Part shown: positions 39,051 to 61,953 of the stretch, one piece after another
Layout: each line of letters begins with the position of its first letter
Numbering within the stretch: position 1 is the stretch's first letter
Assembly: GCF_011766325.1 (NCBI RefSeq)
Contig: NZ_BLLG01000001.1
Span: forward strand, 1-64,000
Origin: Streptomyces pacificus
GTDB lineage: Bacteria; Actinomycetota; Actinomycetes; Streptomycetales; Streptomycetaceae
DNA length: 64,000 bases
Reading direction: 5' to 3'
Position numbers and translations under genes: made by a program
The notes under the pieces: generated by a model
Databases searched by the model: none
What the model saw: only the letters and a program-made list of their open reading frames with translations
What the model was told of the DNA's origin: nothing

Positions 39051-39315
39051 GCCGGCCTCCCGACTCGCCGGGCGCCGGAGGCGGGGGCTGAGGCCGGGAC
39101 GTGCTCGGGGACGGTGCCGCGGCTGAGGCCCGGACGGCGGCTGTGGCCGGGCCGGGGAGGGAACCGGAGGGGGCTGGAGGGGGCCGGAGCCGGAGGGGGC
39201 CGGAGCGGGTACGCGCTGGGGTCGGAGCTCCTTCCCCGCGGCCGGGGCTGCTGCCGGGCGTCCGTTGTCCACAGGCGCGACAGGCGGGTCGCGCGATGCC
39301 GTTACCCTTGGACGC

Positions 39316-40422
39316 GTGGCAGTCGTCGATGTATCCGAAGAGCTGAAGTCCCTCTCCTCGACCATGGGGTCGATCGAGGCCGTCCTGGACCTCGACAGGA
39401 TGAGGGCAGACATCGCCGTGCTCGAGGAGCAGGCGGCGGCACCGTCCCTCTGGGACGACCCCGAGGCGGCGCAGAAGATCACCAGCAGGCTCTCGCACCT
39501 GCAGGCCGAGGTCCGCAAGACGGAGGCGCTCCGCGGGCGGATCGACGACCTCGAAGTCCTCTTCGAACTCGCCGAGGCCGAGGACGACCCTGACACCCGT
39601 GCCGAGGCCGAGGCCGAACTCGAAGCCGTCCGGAAGGCGCTGGACGAGATGGAGGTCCGCACCCTCCTCTCCGGCGAGTACGACGAGCGTGAGGCACTGG
39701 TCAACATCAGGGCCGAGGCCGGCGGTGTCGACGCCGCGGACTTCGCCGAGCAGCTCCAGCGCATGTATCTGCGCTGGGCCGAGCGCCACGGCTACGGCAC
39801 GGAGGTGTACGAGACCTCGTATGCGGAGGAGGCCGGCATCAAGTCGACCACGTTCGTCGTGAAGGCGCCGTACGCCTACGGCACGCTGTCGGTGGAGCAG
39901 GGTACACACCGTCTGGTCCGCATCTCCCCCTTCGACAACCAGGGCCGGCGCCAGACGTCCTTCGCCGGTGTCGAGGTCCTCCCTGTCGTCGAGCAGTCCG
40001 ACCACGTCGACATCGACGAGTCCGACCTGCGGGTCGACGTCTACCGCGCCTCCGGTCCGGGTGGCCAGGGCGTCAACACCACGGACTCGGCGGTCCGTAT
40101 CACCCACATCCCCACCGGCATCGTCGTCTCCTGCCAGAACGAGCGCTCCCAGATCCAGAACAAGGCGAGCGCGATGAACGTCCTCCAGGCGAAGCTCCTC
40201 GAGCGCCGCCGCCAGGAGGAGCAGGCCAAGATGGACGCCCTCAAGGGCGACGGCGGCAACTCCTGGGGCAACCAGATGAGGTCGTACGTGCTGCACCCAT
40301 ACCAGATGGTCAAGGACCTGCGCACGGAGTTCGAGGTCGGCAACCCGCAGTCGGTGCTCGACGGCGAGATCGACGGCTTCCTTGAGGCGGGCATCCGCTG
40401 GCGGAAGCAGCGGGAGAAGTAG
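39316..40422 (+). CDS. prfB: peptide chain release factor 2
   Basis: 368 aa. Recognises UGA/UAA and releases the peptide. The tripeptide anticodon SPF is in [16 protein letters not shown] and the catalytic GGQ in [15 protein letters not shown]. An in-frame internal stop of the E. coli prfB autoregulatory frameshift type is absent, so expression is not controlled that way here. The GTG start has no ribosome binding site; TACCCT lies 7 nt upstream, compatible with a leaderless mRNA. prfB marks the left edge of the accessory island. Confidence 0.97.
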
Positions 40423-41938: not shown

Positions 41939-43459
41939 ATGGTCGGCCACAGCGGCAGCGGGCCCCCCGCAGAAGGTACCCATTCCGTGTTCCACACACG
42001 ACTCGTACCGCCCGCGCTCGGCCCCCTTCTCGACCGTCCCCGACTGTTCCGGACGCTCGACCGGGGAGTGACGAGACGGCTCACCCTCGTGGTCGGTCCG
42101 CCAGGGGCCGGCAAGAGCGCGCTCCTGGCCTCCTGGGCCGGATCGCTGCCGCAGGGCGAGCCGGCGTGGCTGACTCTCGACGCCGACGACAACCACGTCC
42201 CCCGGCTCCTCACCCACCTCGCCGCAGCCCTGACCCGTGCCACCGCCTCCCAGGGCGGCGAGGCGCTCCGCTTCGGTGACGGGGTGAGTGTGCCGGCCCT
42301 GCTGGACGAGGTCTCCCGGCACCCGCATCCGCTCGTCCTGGTCGTCGACGCCTTCCACGAGCTGAAGCCCGGGCCGGCGCGCAGCGCCCTGCTGCAGTTC
42401 GCCCGCTACGCACCGGGCGGCCTGAGCGTGGTGCTCGCCAGCCGCAGAGAACCCGATCTGCCGCTCCACAAGCTCCGCGCGGGCGGCGAGCTCACCGAGA
42501 TCAGGGGCGCGGATCTCGCGTTCACTCATGCGGAGACGGCCGAGCTGTTCCGGGCGCACGGAGCGAGAGCCGGTGACGACCAGATCGCCGCCGTGGTCCG
42601 GTGCTCCGGAGGCTGGGCCCTCGCAGTCCGCTATGCCTCGGTCAACCCCGTCCGGGGCAATGATCCCCGCTCCTGCCTCGAGGGATGGTCCCAGGCCATC
42701 CGGCACTGCTCCGACTTCCTGCTGTCGGAGCTGCTCGACCCGATGCCCGCGGGCGATCAGGACGTGCTGCTGCGCACCAGTCTGCTCGGCGGGTTCAGCG
42801 CGTCCCTGCTGCGCGCCCTGACGGGCCGGGCCGACCTCAACCGGGTGCTGCGCAGGCTCTCCAACGAGCACGACCTGCTGGTGCGCGACGACGAGTGGAC
42901 CTACCGGCTGCCCAATCCGCTGATGCGAGGGGTGCTCTCGAGGGAACTCGCCGAGCGGTACGGCTGGCCCGAGGTGAGCCGGCTGCTGGGCAAGGCCGCC
43001 CGCTGGTACGAGGACATGGGCGTGGCCTCCGCCGCCCGGAGGTACGCGGCAGCCGCGCAGGCCCACGAGGCGGGGCCCGCGCCGGGGGGCGGCATCCTGC
43101 TCCCGCCGGGACTCGGGCACGTCGACGGGGGAGCACCCCTCCGGGTGCCCGCGGGTGACGCCGGCCTGTCACCCGTCACATCACCCGTCCTCTCACCCGC
43201 TCCGCAGGTCCCCGCCGAGGCTCCCTCGGCGGGCTCCGGGCCGTATGCGGCCGCCGACTCCCTGACGCGAAGCGAACTCGACGTGCTGCGGCTGCTGCCG
43301 CTCGGTCTGACGCTGGACGAGATCGCCGCCCGTCGCCATGTATCCCTGAATACCGTCAAGACGCAGGTGCAGGCCATATACCGCAAGCTGCAGGTCGGCC
43401 GCAGACGCGATGCGGTCCGGGTGGCCGGGGAACGTGGTCTGATCAGTCCTCGGGGCTGA
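41939..43459 (+). CDS. LuxR family ATPase-containing regulator of the island
   Basis: 506 aa. MalT-like N-terminal ATPase: Walker A LVVGPPGAGKSALLASWAG, Walker B-like PLVLVVDAFHEL, and helical segments to about residue 360; a short linker leads to a C-terminal LuxR helix-turn-helix (LTRSELDVLRLLPLGLTLDE, then VSLNTVKTQVQAIYRKLQVG). It is shorter than MalT/LAL regulators (about 900 aa) because the long TPR section is missing. It is the first gene of the island on the same strand as the RiPP genes, 545 bp before the YcaO gene, so it is likely the pathway regulator. ATG with GGAGAGGCAAGG upstream. Confidence 0.88.
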   Translation: MVGHSGSGPPAEGTHSVFHTRLVPPALGPLLDRPRLFRTLDRGVTRRLTLVVGPPGAGKSALLASWAGSLPQGEPAWLTLDADDNHVPRLLTHLAAALTRATASQGGEALRFGDGVSVPALLDEVSRHPHPLVLVVDAFHELKPGPARSALLQFARYAPGGLSVVLASRREPDLPLHKLRAGGELTEIRGADLAFTHAETAELFRAHGARAGDDQIAAVVRCSGGWALAVRYASVNPVRGNDPRSCLEGWSQAIRHCSDFLLSELLDPMPAGDQDVLLRTSLLGGFSASLLRALTGRADLNRVLRRLSNEHDLLVRDDEWTYRLPNPLMRGVLSRELAERYGWPEVSRLLGKAARWYEDMGVASAARRYAAAAQAHEAGPAPGGGILLPPGLGHVDGGAPLRVPAGDAGLSPVTSPVLSPAPQVPAEAPSAGSGPYAAADSLTRSELDVLRLLPLGLTLDEIAARRHVSLNTVKTQVQAIYRKLQVGRRRDAVRVAGERGLISPRG

Positions 43460-43871: not shown

Positions 43872-43933
43872 GGGTGATGTTCCGTCACCCTCGCCCCGTC
43901 CAGCGCCCGGAACGCGTTTCACCCCCGACGCGT
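43872..43933. promoter_or_regulatory. candidate operator upstream of YcaO gene
   Basis: A perfect inverted repeat GGGTGA-N7-TCACCC at 43872-43890 is followed by two ACGCGT palindromes at 43912-43917 and 43928-43933, 16 bp apart. They lie 70-130 bp before the first RiPP enzyme gene and are candidate binding sites for the LuxR-type regulator. Assignment is inference. Confidence 0.4.
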
Positions 43934-44004
43934 GATGCTTCCTCCACCGGCTCGGATGTTGGCTTCAGCCGATCGCTGCGCACGCAGATGACAGGAGGCA
44001 GCCA

Positions 44005-45369
44005 GTGCTGGATGCACGTGCGAGGGACGGCCGGACCGCTGCCGCGGACCGGGGGGACGGCGCGACGGAGGACGACCTCGCCGGGCTGCGGCGGCTGGAG
44101 GCCGTCGTCGGACCCGCCGGGCGACCGGTGCGAGGGTCCCAGCTCCTCCCCAATCTGCCGGGTGAGCCCCCCTATTCGGTCTTCGTCTCGTCCATCGGCG
44201 ACCCCACCGCGCTCTGGTCCGACACCCCGGCCCAGCCCCAGGGGCTGGACGGGGCCGGCGGCGGCACCGATCCCGAGCGGGCCCGGCTGATCAGCGTCGC
44301 CGAGGCCCTGGAGCGCTACACCAACTCCTTCTACCAGCCGCAACTGGTGCGCTGGGCGACCGCGGACGAACTCGGCGACGAGGCGGTCGACCTCGACACG
44401 CTCCCGCGCTGCTCGGAGACGGAGCTGTCCGACGAGGCGAACTGGCTGATCCGTCCCGACGGTTCGCTGCCGCAGCGCTGGGTCCGCGGCTGGTCGCTGA
44501 CCCGCGGCCGCCCGGTCTGGGTCCCCGCGTCCTACGTCTGGCTGTTCACCGCGCACGAGGCGATGGGGGAGCGGATCGCCAATCCCATCTCGACCGGCTG
44601 CGCGATCCACACGGATCTGCACCAGGCGCTGGTGAACGGCATCTGCGAGGCGATCGAACGCGACGCGATCGCACTGGTGTGGCTCCAGCGCCTTCGGCTG
44701 CCGGAGATCGACGTCACCGGCGAGCCGTCCCTGCGGGAGCAGCACCGGCGGGTCAGGGACGGCTTCGTGGAGTACCGCTTCTACGACGCCACCACGGACG
44801 TGGGCGTCCCCACGGTCTACGCGGTCGTGCTCAGCGACCACAACGACACCCTGGGCCAGCTCGTGATGTGCGCGACGGGCACCGACCCGGCCGAGATCAT
44901 CCGCAAGATCTACCGGGAGGCCGCCTCCTCCCGCATCGCCCTGCAGGCCCCGCATGTCGTCCCCGAGGACCCGCGGGACTTTACCAGCGTTCTGCACGGC
45001 GCGATCCACATGGGGCGCCCGGAGCGGCGCGACGCCTTCGACTTCCTGCTGAGCGGGCCGCGCACCACCCGGGTGCCCGGTGACCTGCCGCGGGCGCCGG
45101 CCGGCCCACCCGCACGGCAGCTGTCCTGGCTCGTGGAGCGGCTGGCCGCGGTGGACGCCGAAGTGGTCGCCGTGGAGCTGACGACGGACGAGGCCCGGCG
45201 TGCGGGGCTCCGCTCGGTACGGGTCGTCGTCCCCCAGCTGATGCCGCTGTCCTTCGTGCACCGCAACCGCTACCTGGCGCACCCCCGGCTCTACCGGGCA
45301 CCGGTCGCGATGGGGCTGACCAGCCACCCGGAACACGAACTCAACCCCCACCCGCAGCCCTTCGCCTAG
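44005..45369 (+). CDS. YcaO cyclodehydratase (azoline-forming)
   Basis: 454 aa. ATP-dependent backbone cyclodehydratase that turns Cys, Ser and Thr of the precursor core into azolines. The YcaO ATP-binding motifs are visible as ISVAEALERYTNSFY and NGICEAIERDAIALVW, followed by IIRKIYREAASSRIALQ. The C terminus reads LNPHPQPFA, a PxPxP-type tail characteristic of azoline-forming YcaO enzymes. The E1-like partner domain is not fused but encoded next door. GTG start with CAGGAGGCAGCCA upstream. It opens a run of seven enzyme genes with overlaps or gaps of at most 12 bp. Confidence 0.92.
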   Translation: MLDARARDGRTAAADRGDGATEDDLAGLRRLEAVVGPAGRPVRGSQLLPNLPGEPPYSVFVSSIGDPTALWSDTPAQPQGLDGAGGGTDPERARLISVAEALERYTNSFYQPQLVRWATADELGDEAVDLDTLPRCSETELSDEANWLIRPDGSLPQRWVRGWSLTRGRPVWVPASYVWLFTAHEAMGERIANPISTGCAIHTDLHQALVNGICEAIERDAIALVWLQRLRLPEIDVTGEPSLREQHRRVRDGFVEYRFYDATTDVGVPTVYAVVLSDHNDTLGQLVMCATGTDPAEIIRKIYREAASSRIALQAPHVVPEDPRDFTSVLHGAIHMGRPERRDAFDFLLSGPRTTRVPGDLPRAPAGPPARQLSWLVERLAAVDAEVVAVELTTDEARRAGLRSVRVVVPQLMPLSFVHRNRYLAHPRLYRAPVAMGLTSHPEHELNPHPQPFA

Positions 45370-45381
45370 GAGACAACCGCC

Positions 45382-46041
45382 GTGCCGTTCACCACCGCAC
45401 CCGCGCACATCCTGTGGACCGGGACGTTCGGCAGGAGGGTCGCCGACCACCTGACCGCGCTCACCGACTGGCCCTCCGCCACCGCCGACGCCCTCGGCAG
45501 CAGGTCCGCCGAGTGGCCCCACACCGGGCTCCGCGTGCTCGCCCTCTGGCGGGACGAACCCGCTCTCCTGGCAAACGTCGCCCGGTTGCACAGCGTGTGC
45601 CGCACGACCTGGCTCCCGGTCGTCCAGGAGTTCCCCCTCATCAGGATCGGCCCCCTGGTCGTGCCGGGCGAGGGCCCCTGCCACTCCTGCTACACCCGGC
45701 GCCGGACCCAGCACGAGCGGGGGCGTGAGGTCTCCCGGGCCCTGCAGGAGTCGAGGGCGGCCGATCCCGGCCACGGGATCGCGGGGTTCACCGACGCGCA
45801 GGCGATGATCGCGGCCGGCCTCGCGGTGGACCTCCTCACCCGCCACCGCACCGGGGACGGTGCCGTGGCCGGGCAGGTGACCTTCTACAACATGCTGACC
45901 CGGTCGCTGTTCTCCGACACGGTCATCGGCGTGCACGGCTGCGAGGAGTGCGGGGCACCGGTGGATCCGGACGACGGCTGGCGGCGGCTGGCCGAAGAGC
46001 TGCCGCTCTCCACGGGCATCGCGGCGGGGGGCGAGCGGTGA
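45382..46041 (+). CDS. small E1/ThiF-like RiPP protein with two Cys pairs
   Basis: 219 aa. It resembles the C-terminal part of ocin-ThiF/E1-like partner proteins: IRIGPLVVPGEGPCHSCYTR with Cys 100/103 and a second pair VHGCEECGAP with Cys 187/190, together a likely structural zinc site. No nucleotide-binding GxGxxG of a full ThiF is seen, and the N terminus is reduced (AHILWTGTFGRRVADHLTAL). It probably works with the YcaO enzyme in precursor recognition or cyclodehydratase assembly. It starts 12 bp after the YcaO stop and its own stop overlaps the next start by 4 nt. Confidence 0.75.
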   Translation: MPFTTAPAHILWTGTFGRRVADHLTALTDWPSATADALGSRSAEWPHTGLRVLALWRDEPALLANVARLHSVCRTTWLPVVQEFPLIRIGPLVVPGEGPCHSCYTRRRTQHERGREVSRALQESRAADPGHGIAGFTDAQAMIAAGLAVDLLTRHRTGDGAVAGQVTFYNMLTRSLFSDTVIGVHGCEECGAPVDPDDGWRRLAEELPLSTGIAAGGER

Positions 46042-47798
46042 GCGCCCTCGCCGGCGAGCCGGGACAGCGCGGCACTCCCGCGGCGGTCGTCGCCGCGGCC
46101 GTGAGCACCGATCCCCAGTTCCGCCTTCCCGTCCGCCCGCAGCTCTGCCGGGGGCTCCACGTCGTGGACACACCGGACGGCGTGGTCATCGACGGAGGCG
46201 CCGAACGCCAGCATCTGCGCGGCGCCTCGGCCTCCACCCTCCGGCGGCTCCTGCTGCCCCTGCTGGACGGCAGCCGGGACATCGCCGGACTGGCCCAGGC
46301 CACCGGATGGCGCGAGCCGGTCGTCCACCAGGCCGTCGCCACCCTCTACTTCGCCGGGGTGCTCGAGGACGCGGCACAGACCGTACCCCCACCGGAGGGC
46401 GAGGGGCCGTCGGAGACGGCCGCGGTCTGGATGTCGCGGACGCTCGACTGCGCCCGCGTCCACCCCCACTCCAGCCACGCGGCGCTCGCCGCGGCACGGG
46501 CCCGGGTGCGGCTGAGCGTACGGGCGTCCTGGCAGCAGCCCCTGCGTACGGCACTGGCCGACCTCGGGATCACCGATGTGCTCCCACTCGCCCCAGGCGA
46601 AGGGGCTCCCGAGGGCGCACTGGTCGTGGCCGACCTCGCCGCGCCCCGCGCGACGGTCGACCGGATCGTCGAGGAGACCGCCCGGCGCGGCAGCCGGCTG
46701 CTGCTGGCGGACGAGCGCGACGGACAGGTCGCCGTGGGGCCCCTGGTGGACCCGTCGGCGACCGCCTGCGCGCACTGCGCCCGTGCCTCCGTCGCGCTTC
46801 GGCCCCTGCCGCCCGAGGGGTTCCTGGACGCGGCCCCCACTCCGGGCGCGGTGACCGCGGCCGGACTGATCGCCGAGGAGCTGCGGGCCCTGCTGCTGCG
46901 GGGCGAGCCGGTCCAGTCGCTCGGCGGGCGGCTCGTGGTGGACCTCGCCGACCTGTCCACCACCCCCTACAAGCTGACCCCCGAGGTCGGCTGCCGCACC
47001 TGCTACCCGACGGCCGAGGGCCGCGACGGCCTCCCGCAGGAGGACGGACCGCTGCACTACGAGCACGCCGTGGCCTTCCCTCCCCGGCATCTGGTCAACC
47101 CCAAGGCGCACCAGCACCACTTCCGCCCGGAGAATGTCGGACTCCAGTTCGAGCGGCTGAGGTATCCCAACAACCCCCGGCAGCCGCTGCCCGACGCGTC
47201 CCTGACGGACCTGGAGAAGCTCGCCGCCGACGCGCAGCAGCCACCGTGGCCGGAGGCCCTGGCGGCCCTGATGCGCTTCACCGCCGGACTGCGCGGCCCC
47301 GGGGACGAGGGGGAGTTCACCGACCCCACCCGGGTCAACCGGTGGGCCCCGACCGGCGGCAACCTGGGTTCGCCCCATGTCTACGCGCTGCTCCGGGGCG
47401 TTCCCGGACTCCCCGACGGCGTCCACTACTACGACGCCGCCGACCACACGCTCACCGCCATGCACCCGCACACCGAACACCTCGACACCCTTCTCACGGC
47501 GCTGGGCGACGGGGCCGAGGACGGCGGGACACGGCCCGGCGTGCATCTGGTCCTCGCCTCGGACGTCGGCCGCGTCGCCCGGAAGTACGGCCCCTTCGCC
47601 TACCGCGTGGGCAACCTCGACACCGGATGCGCGCTCGCGCAGCTCGCTCTCACGGCGCGGGCGATCGGGCTGGCGCACGGTCTGCTCGACCCCCACCCCC
47701 TGCAGCGGCACCGGGAACTCCTCGTGGGCGCCGCCGGGCCCGCGCTCATCACCGCCGCCGTTCGGCTGTACGACGAAGGGAGCGGCTCGTGCCGCTGA
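46038..47798 (+). CDS. RRE-ThiF-like protein fused to SagB-type dehydrogenase
   Basis: 586 aa, GTG start overlapping the previous stop. Residues about 28-110 form a PqqD-like winged-helix unit (HLRGASASTLRRLLLPLLDG, then REPVVHQAVATLYFAG), a likely leader-binding RRE. A ThiF-like middle carries Cys pairs 244/247 (CAHC) and 319/322 (CRTC). From about 345 there is a nitroreductase fold of the McbC/SagB type (RVNRWAPTGGNLGSPHVYAL, VHYYDAADHTLTAMHPHT, YRVGNLDTGCALAQLALTAR), the FMN-dependent dehydrogenase that oxidises azolines to azoles. Such fusions occur in goadsporin- and thiopeptide-type clusters. The C-terminal part joins closely with the next gene. Confidence 0.82.
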   Translation: MSALAGEPGQRGTPAAVVAAAVSTDPQFRLPVRPQLCRGLHVVDTPDGVVIDGGAERQHLRGASASTLRRLLLPLLDGSRDIAGLAQATGWREPVVHQAVATLYFAGVLEDAAQTVPPPEGEGPSETAAVWMSRTLDCARVHPHSSHAALAAARARVRLSVRASWQQPLRTALADLGITDVLPLAPGEGAPEGALVVADLAAPRATVDRIVEETARRGSRLLLADERDGQVAVGPLVDPSATACAHCARASVALRPLPPEGFLDAAPTPGAVTAAGLIAEELRALLLRGEPVQSLGGRLVVDLADLSTTPYKLTPEVGCRTCYPTAEGRDGLPQEDGPLHYEHAVAFPPRHLVNPKAHQHHFRPENVGLQFERLRYPNNPRQPLPDASLTDLEKLAADAQQPPWPEALAALMRFTAGLRGPGDEGEFTDPTRVNRWAPTGGNLGSPHVYALLRGVPGLPDGVHYYDAADHTLTAMHPHTEHLDTLLTALGDGAEDGGTRPGVHLVLASDVGRVARKYGPFAYRVGNLDTGCALAQLALTARAIGLAHGLLDPHPLQRHRELLVGAAGPALITAAVRLYDEGSGSCR

Positions 47799-48619
47799 TC
47801 GAGACGGCCCGCCTCACCGAGGAACTGCTGGCCGCACCACCCACCGGGTCCGCGTCCACCGGGTCCGCGTCCACCGGGTCCGCGTCCACCGGGTCCGCGT
47901 CCACCGGGTCCACCGCCGTCGGTGTCCGGCCCGGAGCGGCCCCCGCGCTGCCCGGCGACCCGGTCCAGGCACTGCGCCGCCGCACCGCCCAGCGGCACTG
48001 GGCACCCGGACCCCTGGACGGGGACGTCCTCGTCCAGGCCCTCGGGTACGCCTTCGAGCAGGACGAGCGGCTGTGGCGGCCGGCCTTCCCCACCCTCCCG
48101 GCGCCGTCCGCGACCGTACTGGTCCAGCGAGTCCTCGGCGTTCCCGGCGGCTGCCACCACTTTGTGCCCGGGGCCCGGCGCCTTGAGGCCGAGCCGCGCG
48201 ATCTGCCGCCGCTCGCCGACCTGGTGCTGCAACTGGAGTTCGGCGATGCACCGGCCCTGGTGGTGGTGCACGGCGACCTGGCGGCGACCGTCGAGCGGCA
48301 TGGGGCGGGGGGCCATCGCCTGCTCCTCGCGCGCGGCGCCGCGCTGGCCCACGCCACCTGGCTCGCGGCCCTCTCCCTCGGCGCCACCGGCTCCGTGTTC
48401 GCCGGTGTGCTCGGCGCGGCGGGACGCACCCATCTGGGCATCGACGGGTCCGGCCGGGCACAGCTGATCGGACTGGCCCTCGGCTCCCCCCACCGGGTTC
48501 GCTCGGCCGAGTCCCAACCTCAGTCCCAGTCCCAGTCCCAACCTCGGTCCCCGTCCCGGGCAGAGGCCCCGCCCACGCCCCCGACCCCGGCTCCGGCCGA
48601 CCGGACGGGGGAGCGGTGA
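47789..48619 (+). CDS. second nitroreductase-like protein
   Basis: 276 aa. Begins with PLIETARLTEELLAAPP, then four and a half copies of a TGSAS pentapeptide, then a nitroreductase-like domain: DPVQALRRRTAQRHWAPGPL, LPPLADLVLQLEFGDAPALV, LLARGAALAHATWLAALSLG and SVFAGVLGAAGRTHLGIDG. It resembles the C-terminal half of SagB/McbC-type dehydrogenases more than the N-terminal half, so with the preceding protein it may form one active heteromeric oxidase. A Gln-Ser/Pro-rich tail ends the protein. GTG start, 10-nt overlap with the preceding gene, GGGAG upstream. Confidence 0.7.
   Translation: MPLIETARLTEELLAAPPTGSASTGSASTGSASTGSASTGSTAVGVRPGAAPALPGDPVQALRRRTAQRHWAPGPLDGDVLVQALGYAFEQDERLWRPAFPTLPAPSATVLVQRVLGVPGGCHHFVPGARRLEAEPRDLPPLADLVLQLEFGDAPALVVVHGDLAATVERHGAGGHRLLLARGAALAHATWLAALSLGATGSVFAGVLGAAGRTHLGIDGSGRAQLIGLALGSPHRVRSAESQPQSQSQSQPRSPSRAEAPPTPPTPAPADRTGER
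47843..47911 (+). repeat. 15-bp tandem repeat (TGSAS codons)
   Basis: Four exact copies of a 15-bp unit beginning ACCGGGTCCGCG plus a 9-bp partial copy, in the N-terminal linker of the second nitroreductase-like gene. The unit length keeps the frame. Confidence 0.95.
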
Positions 48620-49758
48620 TGGCCGGCCCGTCCACCGACGTCGCCTCCGGCAGCGCGGAGCCGTCGTGGCTCGACACCGAGCGCCCGGCGATCCGCCCCG
48701 ATGTCGAGATCACCGAGGGTCTGCACCACCAACCGCTCGCCTACGACCCGGTCAGCGGCCACTACACCCGGCTGTCGAGGAGCGGGGCCGCGATCCTCAC
48801 GGCCCTCGACGGCTCCATGACCGGACGGGAGTTCGCCGTCCGGGCCTCGGGTGCGGGCGGCGGTGACGGCTCCACCCAGCAGGTCGTGCTGGCCTTCCTC
48901 GGGGAACTGCGCGCCGCCGGACTGCTGACCGTGCCCCCGGACGGCGGCCGCGACACCTCGGCCGTGCGCTTCGCACGCCGCAGCCATATGCCGCGCCGGC
49001 CGCTGGTGGGCTCCGGGGTCAACGCCGTGCTGGACCCGCCCGCCGCGCTGCTGCGCCGCGCACCGCTCCCGTTCGGCCTCCTGTGGACCGCCGCCGCCGT
49101 CCTCGCCGTGTGGGGTGCGGTGTCGGTGCTCGCCGCCCCCCTCGCGTCCGGCGGTCCCGACCTGTCCCTCCCGGTGTGGGGCTGGGCGATCGTCGTGTGC
49201 AGCATGCTGCTGCAGACCGGGCTGCACGAACTCGCCCACGGACTGGCGTGCCGCTACTACGGCGTACCCGTCCGGGAGATCGGCGTCGGCCTCCTCTTCT
49301 ACCTGGTCCCCGTGGCCTATGTGGACCGTACCGACGCCCACCGGCTCCCCGGCCGCCGGTCCCGGGTGGTCATCGCCCTGGCCGGAGTGGCCCAGGACGT
49401 GCTCTGGCTGGGCGGCTGGTCGGCGCTGTCGATCTCCGCAGAGGGGCGGTTCGGGCAGCTCTGCGTGCTGATGGTCTGGCTGCAGATCGGCCTGCTGCTG
49501 GCGAACCTGAACCCGCTGCTGCCCACCGACGGCTACCACGCGCTGGAGTCGGCCATGGGCACGCTGAACCTGCGCTCGCGCGCCTTCACCGCGCTGCGGT
49601 GCCGGGTGCTGCGGGAGCCGCCGCCGAGCTGGCTCGCCGTCAGAAGCCGCTCCCGGCAGCTGCGCTACCAGGTGTTCGGCTTCGTCTGCCTGGCCTATGC
49701 GCTGCTCCTCGCGGTCTTCTGCATACGTTCCCTGCTGGTGCTGTTCGGGGGCGCGTGA
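48616..49758 (+). CDS. RRE/PqqD-like domain fused to M50-type membrane metalloprotease
   Basis: 380 aa (GTG 48616, or ATG 48619). Residues about 15-105 resemble PqqD/RRE (IRPDVEITEGLHHQPLAYDP, YTRLSRSGAAILTALDG, VVLAFLGELRAAGLLTV). A membrane domain follows with five or six helices, the zinc-binding HELAH at about residues 204-208 and the second M50 motif NLNPLLPTDGYHAL. The fusion couples leader recognition to an intramembrane-type protease, so leader removal, possibly with export, is the natural guess. Catalytic His, Glu and Asp are intact. It overlaps both neighbours by 1-4 nt, so it belongs to the operon. Confidence 0.8.
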   Translation: MMAGPSTDVASGSAEPSWLDTERPAIRPDVEITEGLHHQPLAYDPVSGHYTRLSRSGAAILTALDGSMTGREFAVRASGAGGGDGSTQQVVLAFLGELRAAGLLTVPPDGGRDTSAVRFARRSHMPRRPLVGSGVNAVLDPPAALLRRAPLPFGLLWTAAAVLAVWGAVSVLAAPLASGGPDLSLPVWGWAIVVCSMLLQTGLHELAHGLACRYYGVPVREIGVGLLFYLVPVAYVDRTDAHRLPGRRSRVVIALAGVAQDVLWLGGWSALSISAEGRFGQLCVLMVWLQIGLLLANLNPLLPTDGYHALESAMGTLNLRSRAFTALRCRVLREPPPSWLAVRSRSRQLRYQVFGFVCLAYALLLAVFCIRSLLVLFGGA

Positions 49759-52547
49759 TGACGGCCTCGACCCAGACGCCGTTCCCGGCGCCGGCGCAGC
49801 CCCCGACGCAGGAGCAGGCTCAGGCGGCGGCCCGAACCCCTCAGGCGGCCCAGCCCCCCACCGCCGTCGGCCCCCCCGCCGAGACGCGGGCCGTGAACAC
49901 CCCCGCCGCCCCCGTCCCTGCCGCCCCCGTCCCTGCCGCCCCCGTCCCTGCCGCCCCCGTCCCCGCCCCTGCCGTCCCCGCCCCCGTCCACCTCCTGGCC
50001 GAGGGCCCCGCCCTGAGCAGGGTCGCCGGGCTCCCGGCAGCCGACGTGGCACCCCTGGCGGCCGAGCAGATCGCCGACGTCCTGGACCGGATCGCCGCGG
50101 TCCACCGGGAACTGGCCGACCTGGCACCCACGGTGACGGGTCTGCTGTACGACGCCGTGCCGCTGATGCCGACCGCGGGCGCGCGACGGTCGGTGCTGCG
50201 CTGGCGGAGGGCGGCGCACGCCGGACGGCCGGACCCCGTGGCGCCGGAGCTGTTCGCGCAGGTCCGCCAGGCACTCGCGCCGTTGCGGAGGGAGACCTCG
50301 GCGCTGGAGCGCTGGACGGAACGGGCGGGGACCCTGGAAGGGCTGCGGCAGCTGCTGCGGCTGCGGGCCGGGGCCGCGGAGGCCGCCGAGGAGCGGACGC
50401 TGCGGCACCTCATGGGCCTGCCCGCCGTGTCCGGCGCGCTGGCGCTGGTCTCCCCCGTGTTCTCCCGGCGCCTGCGGCAGCCGGGCGGGCGGCCGCTGGA
50501 CCGGGGGGAACGCCTCACCGCGTACGGGTACGCCGTACGGTCCGCGCTCAAGGCCAGCCCGCTGTCCTCGCTCACCCATGTCGCCGTGCCCGGAGCGGAC
50601 CACGGCGCGCGGGTACGGGTCGGCCTGCACCCCCTGGTCGTCCGGGTGCTGCTGCGGGCCGCCGCCGTCCGGGACGGGGTGCGCGGCCTGGTCCGCTGGC
50701 GGGCCAACGGCTCCCTGCGCGCCGCCGGCCCCACCGCCCTGCTGAGCGAGCCCCGGCAGTCGGTGACCGACGGCTGGGCCTGGTCGGACGACGAGGTCCT
50801 GGACGCCGGCGGACGCGAGGACCTGTCCGCCGCCCTGCGGGATCCGCGGGGGCTGCCCGCCGTCCGGCTGGCCCGCTACCTGGAGGCCGGTCTGCTGGAC
50901 ATCGACGACCCCTGCCCGCAGGACCGGCTCCTGGACTGGCTCGCCGCCGCACTGGCGACGTCTCCCGACCCTTCGGACCGCCGGGCGGCCGGCCTGCTGC
51001 AGAGCGCCGCGGGCGAGCTTGCGGCCATCGCCCGCGGCGGCCCGGCGGCCCGTGCCGCCGGCCTGGTGCGGCTGCGCGAAGCGCTGGAGGAGGCCCTCGA
51101 CGCGCTCGGCGCCGCGGACGACTGGCCGCTGCGCGAGGTGACCCTGGTCTACGAGGACCGGGCGGGCACCCTTGCGGCCCGGCCGGTGGACGACGAGCGG
51201 GCCGCGGTGCTGCGGCGCCATGCCGGGGCCGCGTGCGACAGCCTGCGGGTGTCCCCCGAGTACCAGGCTCTCACCGACGCGTTCGTGGCCCGGTTCGGGC
51301 CGGACGGCGTCTGCGACGACGTGTTCGGTTTCCTTCAGGAGCTGTCCGCGTCCCCGATCCCCGCCGCGCCCCCGATTCCCGCCGCGTCCCCGATTCCCGC
51401 CGCGTCCCCGATCCCCGCCGGGGCCGTCGCCGGCGCCGGGGACGGCCCCGGCGGGTCCGGTGCCTCCGGCGGCCCCGGCGAACGCCGGGACCCGGGAGAC
51501 CTCGGCGGGCCGGGTGCTTCCGGCGGCCCCGGGGACGCCGGAGCCGCTGTCGGCCCCGCCCCCGGCGACGCCCGCCCCGCACGTCCGGGCCGGTCGAGCT
51601 GCCTGCCCTCCGTCGCGGTCGTCTACCAGGACTGCGAAGAGGGGGACGGCGGCCCGCTCCTGGTCGTCAACCAGGTCTCGTCGGGCACGGGAGGGCTGGT
51701 CGCCCGTTTCCACCGGCTGTACGACGACTCCTCAGGCGGCCCGCGCGGGGCGGGCTTCGGCGACCGGCTCCGCGCCTGGGTGCGCACGCTGCATCCGGAC
51801 GCCGAGTGCCTGGAGTTCGTACCGGCCCGCGAGGCCAATCCCCTGCAGGGGGACAGCTGCGGTGTCCTTCCCGTGTCGCTGCACTGGCCCACCGCGCCGC
51901 GCCCGTCCGGTCCGTGCGTACCGCTGGAGGAGCTGGAACTGGCGCACGACAGCCGGGGGAACACCCTGGAACTGCGCCGCCGCAGCGGTACCCCGGTGGC
52001 ACCCGTCTACCTCGGCACCGTCCCCCGCCATCTGGTCGGCGGGGCGGCCCGGTTCCTGCTCGTCCTGGCGGACCCCTGGTGGCTTCCCCCGGGCCTCGCC
52101 GACGGCAGCCGCCCGGACGACCCGGCGGGGCCGGGGCCGGGGGTGTCGGCCCGGAGCGTCGTGGCGGGTGCGGCGGTCCGGCGGGCGCGGTGGCGGATGG
52201 AGGCGTCCGGGGTGCCGCGCCGGGAACCGGGCGAGGAGACGGCGGACTTCCTGGAGCGGACGGACGCCTGGCGGCGCGGACACGGTATGCCCGCCGAGGT
52301 GTACGTCAGGGGCGAGAGCGGCCCCCCACGGCGCGGTGACAGGGCCCGCAAGCCCCTGTGGCTGGCCTTCGCCTCCGTCACCGGCCTGGATCTGCTGGAC
52401 CGCCTCACCGAACGGCCGGACGCGGTGGTGGTGTTCACCGAGTGCCTGCCGCTGCGCCCCGCCGTGCGGGAACCGGACGCCCGGGTGGTCGAACACTGCG
52501 TGCACTTCGCCCGCCCGGCGCGGGTCGACGACCGGGAGCGGAGCTGA
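49758..52547 (+). CDS. split LanB-type dehydratase, glutamylation component
   Basis: 929 aa. Lant_dehydr_N-type protein that uses glutamyl-tRNA(Glu) to activate Ser/Thr of the precursor for dehydration, as GodF or TbtB do. Recognisable blocks are YGYAVRSALKASPLSSLTHV (the R..S/TP region of the LanB fold), WPLREVTLVYEDRAG, VVYQDCEEGDGG, and EFVPAREANPLQGDSCGVLP, with VYLGTVPRHLVGGAARFLLV and PLWLAFASVTGLDLLDRL near the C terminus. The N terminus (about 80 residues) is Ala/Pro repeat, and a second repeat-rich linker lies around residues 530-600. ATG overlaps the previous stop by 1 nt. Confidence 0.88.
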   Translation: MTASTQTPFPAPAQPPTQEQAQAAARTPQAAQPPTAVGPPAETRAVNTPAAPVPAAPVPAAPVPAAPVPAPAVPAPVHLLAEGPALSRVAGLPAADVAPLAAEQIADVLDRIAAVHRELADLAPTVTGLLYDAVPLMPTAGARRSVLRWRRAAHAGRPDPVAPELFAQVRQALAPLRRETSALERWTERAGTLEGLRQLLRLRAGAAEAAEERTLRHLMGLPAVSGALALVSPVFSRRLRQPGGRPLDRGERLTAYGYAVRSALKASPLSSLTHVAVPGADHGARVRVGLHPLVVRVLLRAAAVRDGVRGLVRWRANGSLRAAGPTALLSEPRQSVTDGWAWSDDEVLDAGGREDLSAALRDPRGLPAVRLARYLEAGLLDIDDPCPQDRLLDWLAAALATSPDPSDRRAAGLLQSAAGELAAIARGGPAARAAGLVRLREALEEALDALGAADDWPLREVTLVYEDRAGTLAARPVDDERAAVLRRHAGAACDSLRVSPEYQALTDAFVARFGPDGVCDDVFGFLQELSASPIPAAPPIPAASPIPAASPIPAGAVAGAGDGPGGSGASGGPGERRDPGDLGGPGASGGPGDAGAAVGPAPGDARPARPGRSSCLPSVAVVYQDCEEGDGGPLLVVNQVSSGTGGLVARFHRLYDDSSGGPRGAGFGDRLRAWVRTLHPDAECLEFVPAREANPLQGDSCGVLPVSLHWPTAPRPSGPCVPLEELELAHDSRGNTLELRRRSGTPVAPVYLGTVPRHLVGGAARFLLVLADPWWLPPGLADGSRPDDPAGPGPGVSARSVVAGAAVRRARWRMEASGVPRREPGEETADFLERTDAWRRGHGMPAEVYVRGESGPPRRGDRARKPLWLAFASVTGLDLLDRLTERPDAVVVFTECLPLRPAVREPDARVVEHCVHFARPARVDDRERS
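49911..49970 (+). repeat. 15-bp tandem repeat (AAPVP codons)
   Basis: Four copies of a CCCGTCCCTGCCGCC-like unit in the N-terminal low-complexity part of the LanB glutamylation gene. A second array of 18-bp units (SPIPAA codons) lies in the same gene at about 51350-51422. Both keep the reading frame. Confidence 0.85.
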
Positions 52548-52548
52548 G

Positions 52549-53616
52549 ATGGCCACCGAGGAATGGCTGTACGCCCGGGTCCACCACACCGGGCACCAGG
52601 ACGGCGAACTCCTGCTGGCGGACCTGGTCCCCCGCTGGGTCGAGACGGCCGAACGGGCCGGCGTCCGGCGGTGGTTCTTCATCCGCTACGCCGACGCGAG
52701 CGGCCCGCATCTGCGGGTGCGCTTCCGGGGCACCCCGGCCGTGCTCGACGACTGCTGGGAGGCCGGCCGTGCGCTGTGGAAGGAGCACCTCCCGCCGCCC
52801 GCCGGGGGAGAGGTGCAGCGGCTGCACCCGCGTGCCGAGGAGGGCCTGCCCGGTCGGGGCAGCCGCCGGCTCAGCCTGGGCCTCTACGGCCGGGAGCACC
52901 ACTACTACGGATCCGCTCCGGCCGTCGACGTCGCCGAGGAGGTCTTCCAGACCAGCAGTGAACTGAGCCTGGCGGCGGTACGGGCGACGGGAGCCGACCG
53001 CACGGCCAGGGCGCACCTCGCGGTGCGGGTGATGCGGTCCTGCCTGGGCACGCTGGGTCCGAGGCAGCGCGACCGGATCTGGCGGCTGCACTGGGGCCAC
53101 TGGACGGGCCTGCTCGCCGGGGATCCGGCCTGGCTCCGGGAGACCGAGCGGATCGCCGAGCGGTGGCCGGCGGGAGCAGGACCGTTCACCGGAGACCAGG
53201 GGGCCGAAGCGCGGCCCGCCCCTGCCGGTGCCGCCGCCAGCGCCAGCCCAGGTGCCGGTGCCGGGCCCGCCGGGCCCGATGCCGGTGCCGGCCGCCTGTC
53301 CGTGCTGCCCGCCGCCGCCGACGCGCTGGGCCGCGACCTCGCCGACGGCGTGCGGCGTGCCCTGGCCGCCGACCCCGAGGCGGTCGCCTCGCGTCTGCTG
53401 CTGATGCAGATGCACATGACGCTCAACCGGCTCGGCTTCCTCCCCCTCGAAGAGGCCGTGCTCGGGCGGGTGGCGGCACGGGCGGAGCACTCCGATCCCC
53501 CCTCGCCGCCCCAGGCGCAAGCCGGCGGGCGCCCCGGCACCACCGCCCCTCAGCGGGCCCCGAGACCCGGCGTCCGGCAGGGCGCCGTAGCGGCCCCGCC
53601 CGGGACCGCAGCCTGA
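52549..53616 (+). CDS. SpaB_C-type elimination protein (thiopeptide-type bacteriocin family)
   Basis: 355 aa. Matches the LanB elimination domain family: WLYARVHHTGHQDGELLLAD, RRWFFIRYADASGPHLRVRF, LYGREHHYYGSAPAVDVAEE and the C-terminal LLMQMHMTLNRLGFLPLEEA. It should remove glutamate to form dehydroalanine/dehydrobutyrine after the upstream protein activates Ser/Thr. The same fold also includes pyridine-forming enzymes of thiopeptides, but only one copy is present here and a split LanB requires it for elimination. A Pro/Ala/Gly linker (about residues 218-245) interrupts the domain and a disordered tail ends it. ATG 1 bp after the preceding stop. Confidence 0.88.
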   Translation: MATEEWLYARVHHTGHQDGELLLADLVPRWVETAERAGVRRWFFIRYADASGPHLRVRFRGTPAVLDDCWEAGRALWKEHLPPPAGGEVQRLHPRAEEGLPGRGSRRLSLGLYGREHHYYGSAPAVDVAEEVFQTSSELSLAAVRATGADRTARAHLAVRVMRSCLGTLGPRQRDRIWRLHWGHWTGLLAGDPAWLRETERIAERWPAGAGPFTGDQGAEARPAPAGAAASASPGAGAGPAGPDAGAGRLSVLPAAADALGRDLADGVRRALAADPEAVASRLLLMQMHMTLNRLGFLPLEEAVLGRVAARAEHSDPPSPPQAQAGGRPGTTAPQRAPRPGVRQGAVAAPPGTAA

Positions 53617-53637
53617 AGATCACGAAAGGACAGCGTG

Positions 53638-53799
53638 ATGAACGAACTCGATCTGCACATCGAGCAGGAGAGCCTCGAGATCGAGGTGCTCCCCGACACC
53701 CAGTCCGCGGGCAACTGCGCCGGTAGCGCCAGCACGGCCGGATCCTTCTCCTGCCCCGGGGGCACCATCGGCAGCGCCGGCTCCGCCAGCTCCACCTGA
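53638..53799 (+). CDS. RiPP precursor peptide 1
   Basis: 53 aa. Leader MNELDLHIEQESLEIEVLP, then DTQSAG; the proposed core after Gly25 has 28 residues with 2 Cys, 8 Ser and 3 Thr. The core segment CPGGTIGSAGSA matches goadsporin CSGGTLSSAGCV at seven of twelve positions (C, G, G, T, S, A, G in identical spacing), using the goadsporin sequence from memory. ATG with AAAGGA upstream; a GTG directly before is an alternative start. First of four precursors, 21 bp after the elimination gene, last in the operon. Confidence 0.88.
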   Translation: MNELDLHIEQESLEIEVLPDTQSAGNCAGSASTAGSFSCPGGTIGSAGSASST

Positions 53800-53886
53800 C
53801 CCGGATCGCCCGCGTCGGGCCGCACGGACCGACCGCGGCTCCGGATCCCCGGAGCCGCACCACCCACCACATGACAGGAGACCGCA

Positions 53887-54045
53887 ATGAACGACCTCGA
53901 CCTGCGCCTGGACCAGGAGATGCCCGAGCTGGAGGTGCTGCCCGAGGAGTACTCGGCCGGCAACGTCTCCTCCGCCGCCACCGTCGGCTCCGGTTCCTGC
54001 CCGGCCATGACCTGGGGGACCGCGAGCACCCTGAGCTCCAAGTAG
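53887..54045 (+). CDS. RiPP precursor peptide 2
   Basis: 52 aa. Leader MNDLDLRLDQEMPELEVLP, then EEYSAG; 27-residue core with 1 Cys, 7 Ser and 4 Thr, plus one Trp and one Met. The stretch ATVGSGSCPAMTWGTA aligns with goadsporin ATVSTILCSGGTLSSA with A, T, V, C, T and A in register. Terminal Lys. ATG with CAGGAG 7 nt upstream. Separated from precursor 1 by 87 bp and from precursor 3 by 99 bp, without obvious promoters. Confidence 0.88.
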   Translation: MNDLDLRLDQEMPELEVLPEEYSAGNVSSAATVGSGSCPAMTWGTASTLSSK

Positions 54046-54144
54046 CCCGCCCGCACCATGGCCGGCCGGGCCGTCCATTCCCGGCCGGCCCCCGAAAGAC
54101 GAGCCGGCGGACCCGCCGGTCTCACGACACGTAGAGGAGAGATC

Positions 54145-54324
54145 ATGGACAGGATGCTCGACACCGACGTACTGGAACTCGTGCTGGAGGGCGAGCGCCC
54201 CGAGCTGGAGGTGCTGCCGGCCGGATACGCCCCGGGGAGCTCCGTCGGCAGCGCGGGAAGCATCAGCTGCGCGTCCTGCCCCGCCGCTTCGATCAGCAGC
54301 GCGTCGACCGCCAGCAGCCACTGA
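54145..54324 (+). CDS. RiPP precursor peptide 3
   Basis: 59 aa. The leader is longer and differs at its start (MDRMLDTDVLELVLEGERP) but keeps PELEVLP and APG at the same spacing; 28-residue core with 2 Cys, 12 Ser and 1 Thr, including SISCASCPAASIS. It is the most Ser-rich of the four and ends SSH. ATG with GAGGAGAGATC upstream, a strong ribosome binding site. Confidence 0.86.
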   Translation: MDRMLDTDVLELVLEGERPELEVLPAGYAPGSSVGSAGSISCASCPAASISSASTASSH

Positions 54325-54480
54325 GACCGCGCAGGCACGGGCGACGGTTTCGAGCCGTTCGCCCCGCCGGCCCGGACGCCTGCGGCGGGTCCGAGGACAT
54401 GCCGCAGACATCGCCGACCCCCGCCGGTTCGCCGGCGGACACCCGAACACACCCCACACACCGATATACGGGAGGGAAAC

Positions 54481-54666
54481 ATGAACGACATCACCCCGGC
54501 CACCGGCCTGGCACTCGACCTTCGCCTCGACCAGGAGGCTCCTGAACTGGAGGTCCTGCCGACGTCCCACTCGCCCGGCAGCACCGTGGGCTGCGCCGCC
54601 ACCGGCAGCTCCATCTCCACGCCGTCGGGTTGCTTCAGCAGCGCGGGCACGGCGAGCAGCGCCTGA
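54481..54666 (+). CDS. RiPP precursor peptide 4
   Basis: 61 aa. Leader MNDITPATGLALDLRLDQEA continues PELEVLP and TSHSPG; 28-residue core with 2 Cys, 9 Ser and 4 Thr. Cys positions differ from the other three (core positions 5 and 18), so ring placement must differ. Ends TASSA. ATG with GGGAGGGAAAC upstream. The 156 bp before it contains only GC-rich spacer. The operon terminator follows about 80 bp after the stop. Confidence 0.86.
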   Translation: MNDITPATGLALDLRLDQEAPELEVLPTSHSPGSTVGCAATGSSISTPSGCFSSAGTASSA

Positions 54667-54745
54667 GTGCGTGCCGTGCCACAGGCCGCTGACGGACAGC
54701 CGGTGACCGGGCCCGTGCCCGGCACCTGAGTCAGTCCCGGCCACC

Positions 54746-54789
54746 GGGGCGGCCGGAACCCACCCGACAAGGGCGGGACCGGCCGCCCC
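54746..54789 (+). terminator. terminator of the RiPP operon
   Basis: Perfect 11-bp inverted repeat GGGGCGGCCGG (54746-54756) and CCGGCCGCCCC (54779-54789), followed by TT. A smaller hairpin (CCGGGC-CCGT-GCCCGG, 54707-54722) precedes it. The rest of 54667-55001 holds the promoter of the next gene (TACGCT at about 54945) and no gene. Confidence 0.75.
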
Positions 54790-55001
54790 TTCCGGGCCTG
54801 CCCGCGGCTGACGCGGGCCTCGTGGCCGACCCGGGGCGCGACACTCCCCACGCGCGCTCCGGGCCGGTCTCCCTGTCCTCCGCGGGGACCGGTGGCCATC
54901 CGGAGACCGCCATCCGATTGCGGTCACGGAAAGAGACGCTGTGCTCTACGCTCGGTAGTGGTGATGGAGGCGACCGCAGCCTCACACCGGGGGAGTTGCA
55001 C

Positions 55002-55826
55002 ATGGCGATCGAGGACAACCCGAAGTCCCGCGAGACGTACGGGGCCGAGCTGAGGCGCCGTCGTGAGGCGGCCGGACTCACCCAGGAGGAGTTGAGCCGG
55101 CGGGTGGTCATGTCCCGCACGCACATCGCGCACATCGAGGCGGGCAGGCGCAGACCGGACGTGGAGGACGCGCGGCGACTTGATCGTGTGATGGACAGCG
55201 GTGGCTTCTTCGAGCGGTTCCTGCCGTCGCTGAAGGAGGGCAAGGTCGCGGAGCACTTCGCGGAGGCGCTGGAACTGGAACGCCAGGCGAAGGCGATTCG
55301 GGAGTACGCGCCGAAGCTCGTGCCGGGCGTCCTCCAGACGGAGTCGTATGCACGTGAGGTGCTCAGCTCGGGCTTCCCGTCCAAGACGGAGGCCGAACGC
55401 GACAGGCTCCTCGGTACGCGACTCGCCCGTGCCCGCATTCTCGACGACTTCCACTCGCCGGTGTTCTGGGCACTGCTCGACGAGGCGGTGCTGCGGAGGG
55501 GCGCCGGGTGTCCGAAAGTCATGAGCGAACAGCTGCGCCATATTGCCGACTTGGGCGAGAGTCGTCGGATCCGGGTGCATGTCCTGCCGTTCTCCCTGGG
55601 CCTCCACTCGCTCCTGGAGGGCTTTGTCTCGCTTATGTGGTTCGACGACCTGCCTCCCGTCGCCTATGTCGAAGCCCTGAAGACGGGCCGGGTGCTCGAA
55701 GTGCTCTCCGTGGTGCGCGAGTGCCAGGCGGTCTACGATCACGCCTTGGGGGACGCGCTCTCGCACCGCGAGTCCCTGGCTCTGATCAGGACCGTCGCGG
55801 AGGAGTACGAGCATGCACAGCAGTGA
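55002..55826 (+). CDS. XRE family regulator, DUF5753/Scr1 type
   Basis: 274 aa. N-terminal helix-turn-helix (YGAELRRRREAAGLTQEELS, then VMSRTHIAHIEAGRRRP) and a C-terminal DUF5753 ligand-type domain (YAPKLVPGVLQTESYAREVL, FVSLMWFDDLPPVAYVEAL). This family is expanded in Streptomyces; its members are paired with DUF397 proteins and described as Scr1-type antitoxin-like regulators. It precedes a DUF397 gene with a 14-nt overlap. It lies just outside the RiPP terminator, so a link to the pathway is not shown. Confidence 0.92.
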   Translation: MAIEDNPKSRETYGAELRRRREAAGLTQEELSRRVVMSRTHIAHIEAGRRRPDVEDARRLDRVMDSGGFFERFLPSLKEGKVAEHFAEALELERQAKAIREYAPKLVPGVLQTESYAREVLSSGFPSKTEAERDRLLGTRLARARILDDFHSPVFWALLDEAVLRRGAGCPKVMSEQLRHIADLGESRRIRVHVLPFSLGLHSLLEGFVSLMWFDDLPPVAYVEALKTGRVLEVLSVVRECQAVYDHALGDALSHRESLALIRTVAEEYEHAQQ

Positions 55827-56049
55827 GCACGTCATCCCCGGCACCGGCACCGACGCCGATCCGACGTGGCGCAAGTCCAGCCACAGCGGCGGCAGCAGCG
55901 GCGAATGCCTTGAGGTCGGCGACATATGCCCCGCCTGCGTCCCCGTCCGGGACAGCAAGAACCCCCATGGCCCCGCCGTGGTGTTCGGCGCGACCGCTTG
56001 GACGGCCTTCGTCGGTTCTCTCAGGGCCCAGCCGATCGCCTCTGAGTAA
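55813..56049 (+). CDS. DUF397 domain-containing protein
   Basis: 78 aa. Typical DUF397: TWRKSSHSGGSSGECLEVGD, then VPVRDSKNPHGPAVVFGATA and WTAFVGSLR. Partner of the upstream DUF5753 regulator in the Scr1/Scr2-like pair; small acidic proteins of this class are thought to be controlled by or bind that regulator. Overlapping start suggests co-translation. Confidence 0.92.
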   Translation: MHSSEHVIPGTGTDADPTWRKSSHSGGSSGECLEVGDICPACVPVRDSKNPHGPAVVFGATAWTAFVGSLRAQPIASE

Positions 56050-57915: not shown

Positions 57916-58605
57916 GTGATCCGATTCGACAGCGTCTCCAAGAGCTACCCCAAGCAGAACCGTCCAGCCCTGCGCGATGTCTCCCTGGAGATCGAGAAAG
58001 GCGAGTTCGTCTTCCTCGTGGGCTCGTCCGGCTCCGGCAAGTCGACCTTCCTGCGGCTGGTCCTCCGAGAGGAGCGCACCAGCCAGGGGCAGGTGCACGT
58101 GCTCGGCAAGGATCTGGCGCGCCTGTCCAACTGGAAGGTGCCGCACATGCGCCGGCAGCTGGGCACCGTGTTCCAGGACTTCCGCCTGCTGCCGAACAAG
58201 ACCGTCGCCCAGAACGTGGCCTTCGCCCAGGAGGTCATCGGCAAGCCGCGCGGTGAGATCCGCAAGGCCGTGCCCCAGGTCCTCGACCTCGTCGGTCTCG
58301 GCGGCAAGGAGGACCGGATGCCCGGTGAGCTCTCCGGCGGTGAGCAGCAGCGCGTGGCGATCGCCCGGGCGTTCGTCAACCGCCCCATGCTGCTGATCGC
58401 GGACGAGCCGACCGGAAACCTCGACCCCCAGACCTCCGTCGGCATCATGAAACTTCTGGACCGGATCAACCGGACCGGGACCACGGTGGTGATGGCGACC
58501 CACGACCAGAACATCGTCGACCAGATGCGCAAGCGCGTCATCGAGCTCGAACAGGGCCGGCTCGTACGCGACCAGGCGCGCGGTGTCTACGGCTACCAGC
58601 ACTGA
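57916..58605 (+). CDS. ftsE: cell division ATP-binding protein FtsE
   Basis: 229 aa. ABC ATPase with Walker [10 protein letters not shown], signature [12 protein letters not shown], Walker [14 protein letters not shown] and the H-loop ATHD. Together with FtsX it controls peptidoglycan hydrolases (of the NlpC/P60 type in actinobacteria) during division. GTG start; the upstream sequence lacks a good ribosome binding site. It begins the conserved block ftsE-ftsX-S41-smpB-ssrA at the right edge of the accessory island. Confidence 0.97.
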
Positions 58606-58646
58606 GCAGGCACTGAGCAGGTAGAGGAAAGGCTGAAACACTCGCC

Positions 58647-59564: not shown

Positions 59565-59632
59565 CGAGCGCCCCGGGCGTCGTACGGGTCAACGACCCTG
59601 CGGCGCCCTTCGCTTGTCCTAGAGTGGGCGCC

Positions 59633-60802: not shown

Positions 60803-60820
60803 TGCGAAAATGACCGCACT

Positions 60821-61300: not shown

Positions 61301-61519
61301 GTCGCACATGTGCGCCGGACCCCGGGCGCCGGGCCCTGTGCCCCCGGCCGGACCAGGCCGCCGAGGCGCCGGCCGGGCGCGGGCGCCGCGCCTCTGCCGG
61401 GCCGGGACCGGCCGCACCACCGGCCCCGGGCTGCCGCGCCGCCGGGCCGCAGCACCGGCCGCCGCACCGGGCCGGGCCGGACGCGCGGAATACGCTGGCA
61501 CGTTCGCGCGTTGGTCGCG

Positions 61520-61525
61520 TACGAT
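61520..61525 (+). promoter_or_regulatory. possible ssrA promoter -10 box
   Basis: TACGAT about 45 nt before the mature 5' end of tmRNA; a second candidate, TACGCT, is at 61491-61496. Either would give a precursor needing 5' processing, as usual for tmRNA. No clear -35 box. Confidence 0.3.
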
Positions 61526-61569
61526 GGCTCATGCCCTTCCCGAGAGGGCGGGCATTGAAAAATCAACAT

Positions 61570-61936: not shown

Positions 61937-61953
61937 CTCATCCCATGTGAGCA

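Follow-up and report, generated by a model that had tools for sequence, protein, structure and literature searches.

The closest described system to the gene cluster treated here is that of goadsporin, encoded by the god genes of Streptomyces sp. TP-A0584; the cluster itself lies in a window of 64,000 nucleotides of Streptomyces pacificus (contig NZ_BLLG01000001.1, positions 1 to 64,000), all its named parts being on the + strand inside 43872-54789. According to the goadsporin work (PMC5303826), azole formation by GodD/E requires an X1-(S/T/C)-X2 tripeptide, Ala1 can be replaced except by Glu, Arg, Tyr or Trp, X2 accepts Arg, Tyr and Trp and not Glu, and a single Ala between motifs is tolerated. 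Dehydroalanine (Dha) occurs at S4 and S14 and requires the azoles at T5 and S15, and Ser-Ala put between G10 and G11 adds one GSA motif and raises the azoles to seven; the enzymes are tolerant and have been used for designed azole peptides (PMC5303826). Two goadsporin clusters were known in 2015 according to PMC4603692. Further reports describe spongiicolazolicins A and B from Streptomyces sp. CWH03 as peptides of 29 and 28 residues (PMC8838263) consisting of tripeptide blocks (PMC11583998), and dehydrazoles such as carnazolamide as peptides with azoles and with Dha directly before azoles (PMC10676384).

The S. pacificus locus is very probably a cluster for goadsporin-type ribosomally synthesised and post-translationally modified peptides (RiPPs), in which one enzyme set would convert four neighbouring precursors (A-D) and a fifth encoded elsewhere (E) into linear peptides in which azoles and Dha alternate, likely a family of products and not one compound. 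It resembles the god genes in holding a GodF homologue, a split SpaB_C protein, a YcaO and a SagB protein (Table 1), and the genes present, their order, the build of the cores from tripeptides, the homology to GodF and the conserved precursor types are all directly observed. In the proposed pathway, every chemical step of which is a prediction, as are cleavage site, export and activity, the E1-like and RiPP recognition element (RRE) proteins would bind the leader motif common to the precursors, LDLxLxxExPELEVLP. YcaO would then cyclise, and the SagB dehydrogenase oxidise, the middle Ser, Thr or Cys in every X1-Z-X2 tripeptide to yield 8-9 azoles, after which the GodF-like enzyme would glutamylate any X1 Ser directly before an azole and SpaB_C would eliminate it to Dha. 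The RRE-M50 protein would cut the leader off behind a small residue (..SAG, APG or SPG), perhaps also releasing the product.

Table 1. Window coordinates of the precursor and enzyme genes and of the upstream regulator, with the family or profile evidence for each (residues between tripeptide blocks in brackets)
Feature	Coordinates	Strand	Evidence
AAA-ATPase/LuxR-type regulator	41939..43459	+	PF00196, PF13191 above cut-off
YcaO cyclodehydratase	44005..45369	+	TIGR03604 306 bits (above cut-off), PF02624 224 bits
E1-like leader-binding partner	45382..46041	+	TIGR03882 57 bits, cut-off 36.9
E1-like domain fused to SagB-type dehydrogenase	46035..47798 (approximate start)	+	TIGR03882 39.4 bits and PF00881, both above cut-off; TIGR03605 77.7 bits, slightly under cut-off 78.4
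Second, divergent SagB/nitroreductase-like protein	47795..48619	+	PF00881 20.6 bits, under cut-off 23.5
PqqD/RRE-like domain and M50 metalloprotease	48616..49758	+	PF02163 above cut-off; PqqD 20 bits, under cut-off 23.4
GodF-type glutamylase (split LanB N-part)	49755..52547	+	Homologous to GodF in profile and fold comparisons
SpaB_C protein, predicted glutamate elimination	52549..53616	+	PF14028 117 bits, TIGR03891 80 bits, both above cut-off
Precursor A	53638..53799, core 53713-53796	+	NCA-GSA-STA-GSF-SCP-(G)-GTI-GSA-GSA-SST; NF033482 54.6 bits
Precursor B	53887..54045, core 53968-54042	+	SSA-ATV-GSG-SCP-(A)-MTW-GTA-STL-SSK; NF033482 62.8 bits
Precursor C	54145..54324, core 54238-54321	+	SSV-GSA-GSI-SCA-SCP-(A)-ASI-SSA-STA-SSH; NF033482 56 bits
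Precursor D	54481..54666, core 54580-54663	+	STV-GCA-ATG-SSI-STP-(S)-GCF-SSA-GTA-SSA; NF033482 54.3 bits

Family scans bear out the YcaO, E1-like, dehydrogenase, RRE-M50 and SpaB_C genes and the four precursors named in an initial annotation made from the letters alone, including the YcaO and SagB dehydrogenase pair characteristic of goadsporin-type linear azole peptides, the latter just under the TIGR03605 cut-off. The YcaO protein ends in ..NPHPQPFA (PxPxP). That gene set was incomplete: the weakly nitroreductase/SagB-like gene after the E1-SagB fusion had been passed over, is matched by tblastn in 11/11 related loci and has no counterpart in the goadsporin cluster. The split LanB that had been proposed holds for its SpaB_C half, and the N-part gives no match to Pfam or NCBIfam at E <=1, but profile and fold comparisons show it to be homologous to GodF. 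GodF is both its best profile match (4e-73) and its best fold match, TbtB of the thiomuracin/GE2270-type thiopeptides coming second in the fold comparison. One sequence (P0011), which beyond about residue 490 no longer resembles its family, much as a frameshift would leave it, was excluded from the structure alignment and kept in the profile alignment A1, and alignment A4 was built without P0068, the record of the window's own protein. The SpaB_C protein keeps the motifs HxRxR and HMxxNR in 21/21 aligned sequences; its residue 119, aligned to R826 of NisB, is Tyr in 20/21 near sequences, and the aligned position is Lys in the three distant SpaB_C proteins read (L045, L046, L047). The dehydratase of the dehydrazoles is DUF4135/LanMbC (PMC10676384), unlike the GodF-like and SpaB_C pair here, and no operon protein has a Pfam match to DUF4135.

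The precursors fit the thiocillin-family RiPP model NF033482 well above its cut-off of 25 (54-63 bits for A-D, 38.9 for E), and the template positions for Ser, Thr or Cys are occupied 8/8 in each of the five cores. When each core was shuffled 40,000 times, 124 to 346 of the shuffled versions fitted as well; the five cores are homologous, and the tests are therefore not independent. All 42 sequences scored have an X1-(S/T/C)-X2 core with Ser directly before some Z positions; the ten weakest of 47 precursor hits (P0058-P0067) lay outside this scoring, two of which (P0059, P0065) gave no tripeptide parse, and P0043 fits the template of four blocks, hinge and four blocks, although by an alternative parse the hinge falls elsewhere. 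None of 296 tripeptides breaks the goadsporin residue rules, Met at X1 not being among the tested residues encountered there. Goadsporin has the same X1-(S/T/C)-X2 core, with G10 between two motifs and Dha directly before azoles (PMC5303826); G10 can be read as a spare residue like the hinge here, because the Ser-Ala insertion after it makes a new motif. The systems differ in scale, goadsporin having one 19-residue core with six azoles, against four conserved precursors here, each core with 8-9 predicted azoles (each Z) and 3-6 predicted Dha (each X1 Ser). The predicted neutral masses are 2157.723 (A), 2111.816 (B; 2324.927 with NV kept), 2180.775 (C), 2180.764 (D) and 1869.728 Da (E), to which one retained leader Gly would add 57.021 Da for A, C and D.

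At 28 residues, or 29 with one leader Gly, cores A, C and D can be set beside the spongiicolazolicins by length and tripeptide blocks, the features compared. An orthologous cluster is held by genome G381. We take strain CWH03 to be close to S. spongiicola, and the spongiicolazolicins likely come from this cluster family.

The fifth precursor, type E, is encoded on a separate contig of S. pacificus (G000:C30:14067-14216; L017 9068-9217), so that the four cores of the initial annotation are an incomplete count. Further copies occur at L061 10020-10169 and G275:C1:3755239-3755388, at 4.5 Mb from the cluster in Streptomyces sp. I6 (G199) and 1.3 Mb in G275, and the remaining five near genomes have the four cluster precursors only. 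In strain I6 the open reading frames (ORFs) near type E are, presumably, transposase pieces. Because type E has its leader and template in common with A-D, it would be processed by the cluster's enzymes. That it is instead a solitary relict, or the precursor of another pathway, left untouched by the cluster enzymes, is possible but rather unlikely. Its position outside the cluster speaks for this, as does the environment of the three copies, which can be aligned over 161-169 bases between unrelated flanks, and all three genomes also carry a second type of SpaB_C gene, that of contig C13 described below. G381, however, has the C13-type gene and no type E, and type E retains leader, template and an AAGGAG ahead of its ATG; the S. 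pacificus copy differs from the others with a low nonsynonymous divergence (dN 0.11) against the synonymous one (dS 0.44-0.49), and the copies of G275 and G199 differ at 4/150 bases.

A cyclic product is highly improbable. It would be that of a thiopeptide or pyritide pathway, in which a [4+2] pyridine synthase, either the cluster's SpaB_C or that of C13, closes the dehydrated azole peptides. Thiomuracin/GE2270-type pathways employ YcaO, SagB and split LanB enzymes, and the fit of the precursors to NF033482 would suit such a product. By fold, SpaB_C lies just as near to TbtD/PbtD, elimination and cycloaddition not being separated by this comparison. The S. pacificus genome has a SpaB_C domain on contig C13 besides that of the cluster, and the C13 protein scores 95 bits with the pyridine synthase model NF045556, which speaks for ring closure although it is under the cut-off of 325; the single SpaB_C of the initial annotation is single for the cluster and not for the genome. 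The profile comparison of the cluster's SpaB_C, on the other hand, is led by MibB (E 1.5e-15), followed by TsrE/TsrL at 5.5e-7, with MadB and NisB also aligned and TbtD/PbtD not among the 8 profile rows up to E 10. The C13 protein, moreover, belongs to another cluster (G000 C13 117903-131928; L015, L016) that also has three YcaO domains, SagB, a SARP-like regulator, a permease of ABC type and a protein of 971 residues that matches no family. Nearby on the opposite strand (L016 complement, core near 594) is a Cys/Ser/Thr-rich ORF with a different leader that ends in GSTSCSSTSTCSSTTSTTSCSA and looks like a thiopeptide-type precursor, which would give this cluster a substrate of its own. In G275 a C13-type SpaB_C gene (G275:C1:5049122-5050105) stands about 7 kb from window-type precursors, showing that two RiPP clusters can be neighbours.

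The main point against ring closure comes from three relatives that carry the cluster (G200, G201 and G078), whose genomes each contain one PF14028 domain, inside the cluster, and no second. No separate pyridine synthase of the thiomuracin/GE2270 kind was found in them with PF14028 or NF045556, the latter giving only weak matches to the cluster's own SpaB_C, in G200, though both models might miss a synthase that has diverged. Genome completeness is 100% for G078 and 99% for ISL-10 (G030, the same as G200). Since these genomes carry the cluster without a second PF14028 domain, a second SpaB_C or separate pyridine synthase is probably not required, and the goadsporin-like chemistry and linear product initially proposed are supported by these genomes together with the GodF homology and the tripeptide motif.

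In 11/11 related loci, seven near (L018, L019, L020, L084-L087) and four distant (L045-L048), the enzyme genes stand in the same order and are accompanied by 2 to 5 template-fitting precursors per locus; the SpaB_C of L047 was recognised by motif only and that of L048 runs off the end of its locus, and G038 (L049), with weak and scattered enzyme matches, was excluded. Types A-D, assigned from order and sequence and afterwards checked by identity, occur in 8/8 near-clade genomes including S. pacificus, and relatives' cores are closest to their own type in 30/30 cases. That the four genes are recent, redundant gene-dosage duplicates rather than distinct conserved products, as a common leader and close head-to-tail spacing might suggest, is hardly credible when A-D are mutually identical at 10-13/25 positions against 14-25/25 to the same type in seven relatives, and the order A-B-C-D is kept in 7/8 genomes, ISL-10 having A-D-B-C. 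Mean A-D core identity to S. pacificus is 99% in L018, 94% in L087, 93% in L085, 87% in L084, 82% in L020, 77% in L086 and 66% in L019, values inflated by the few residue kinds, different types within the S. pacificus genome sharing 4-13/25 positions. Measured by their best segment, the glutamylase and SpaB_C are less identical than this in 7/7 relatives and YcaO in only 4/7, and differences at Z are swaps among Ser, Thr and Cys, as the template demands.

At E <=1e-6, NF033482 finds precursors in 7/199 sampled Streptomyces genomes, S. pacificus included. The distant clade has the same enzymes, but its precursors sit between the second SagB-like gene and the RRE-M50 gene, and Thr occupies X1 in part of its cores (e.g. 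TSA), unlike in the near clade. Named precursors among P0023-P0063 are mostly labelled 'thiocillin family RiPP', as NF033482 would assign. The checked P0023-P0063 precursors end in goadsporin-type tripeptide cores, and the label probably misleads cluster annotation.

Leader removal and export appear to be arranged differently from goadsporin, which has the peptidase/ABC (ATP-binding cassette) transporter GodB and the acetyltransferase GodH; the operon here is without either and has the RRE-M50 protein instead, family scans of the genes from 44005 to 53616 giving no ABC or GNAT domain, with other parts of the genome outside that search. HExxH and NLNPLxPxDG are aligned in the RRE-M50 protein of 11/11 relatives, and the daptide M50 model NF041824 gives it 141 bits, under the cut-off of 300. 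PMC10885120 names the M50 protease EpeP as the presumed enzyme for both cleavage and export of an epipeptide, and by analogy the RRE-M50 protein may have an EpeP-like role as leader peptidase.

The regulator gene upstream of YcaO is probably that of the cluster; it is found in 6/7 near loci, the seventh (L019) starting at a contig end. A scan of 53500-55000 gave no promoter and a sole terminator-like site on the - strand, and a PADLOC scan of two proteins gave no match. Positions 54822-56049, directly downstream of the precursors, hold a helix-turn-helix/DUF5753 regulator and, after it, a short ORF which we take to be DUF397-like; this region probably has nothing to do with the cluster. The flanks hold a peptide release factor gene (PCRF/RF-1; 39265-40422) on one side and, within 57916-61937 on the other, an ABC ATPase gene with S41 protease and tmRNA genes further out; the ORFs in between these last are presumably FtsX- and SmpB-like.

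The compound class is already known, and no published description of a multi-precursor goadsporin-like cluster was found in a search that left most subscription literature, including Suzuki et al. 2021, outside; the conserved set of four types, the extra precursor supplied in trans and the variant with an M50 protein appear in no text searched. The chances are about even that the cluster makes a fixed ensemble of four azole/Dha peptides, each type being kept separately from species to species and, averaged, more strongly conserved than the two dehydratase proteins that modify it, with a fifth supplied in trans. The product would then be a mixture of several components, either antimicrobials that cooperate or a blend of signals, and the place of the peptidase-exporter would be taken by an intramembrane M50 protease guided by its RRE. 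With four or five natural cores in a genome, the tripeptides that enzymes of this kind probably accept can be read off, Ser, Thr or Cys being exchanged at the azole and Gly, Ala or Ser before it, and the conserved four-peptide set raises the question of joint action of the products. Many database entries labelled 'thiocillin family RiPP' may, as this cluster suggests, be linear azole peptides, and type E precursors, encoded outside the cluster, would escape cluster-based mining.
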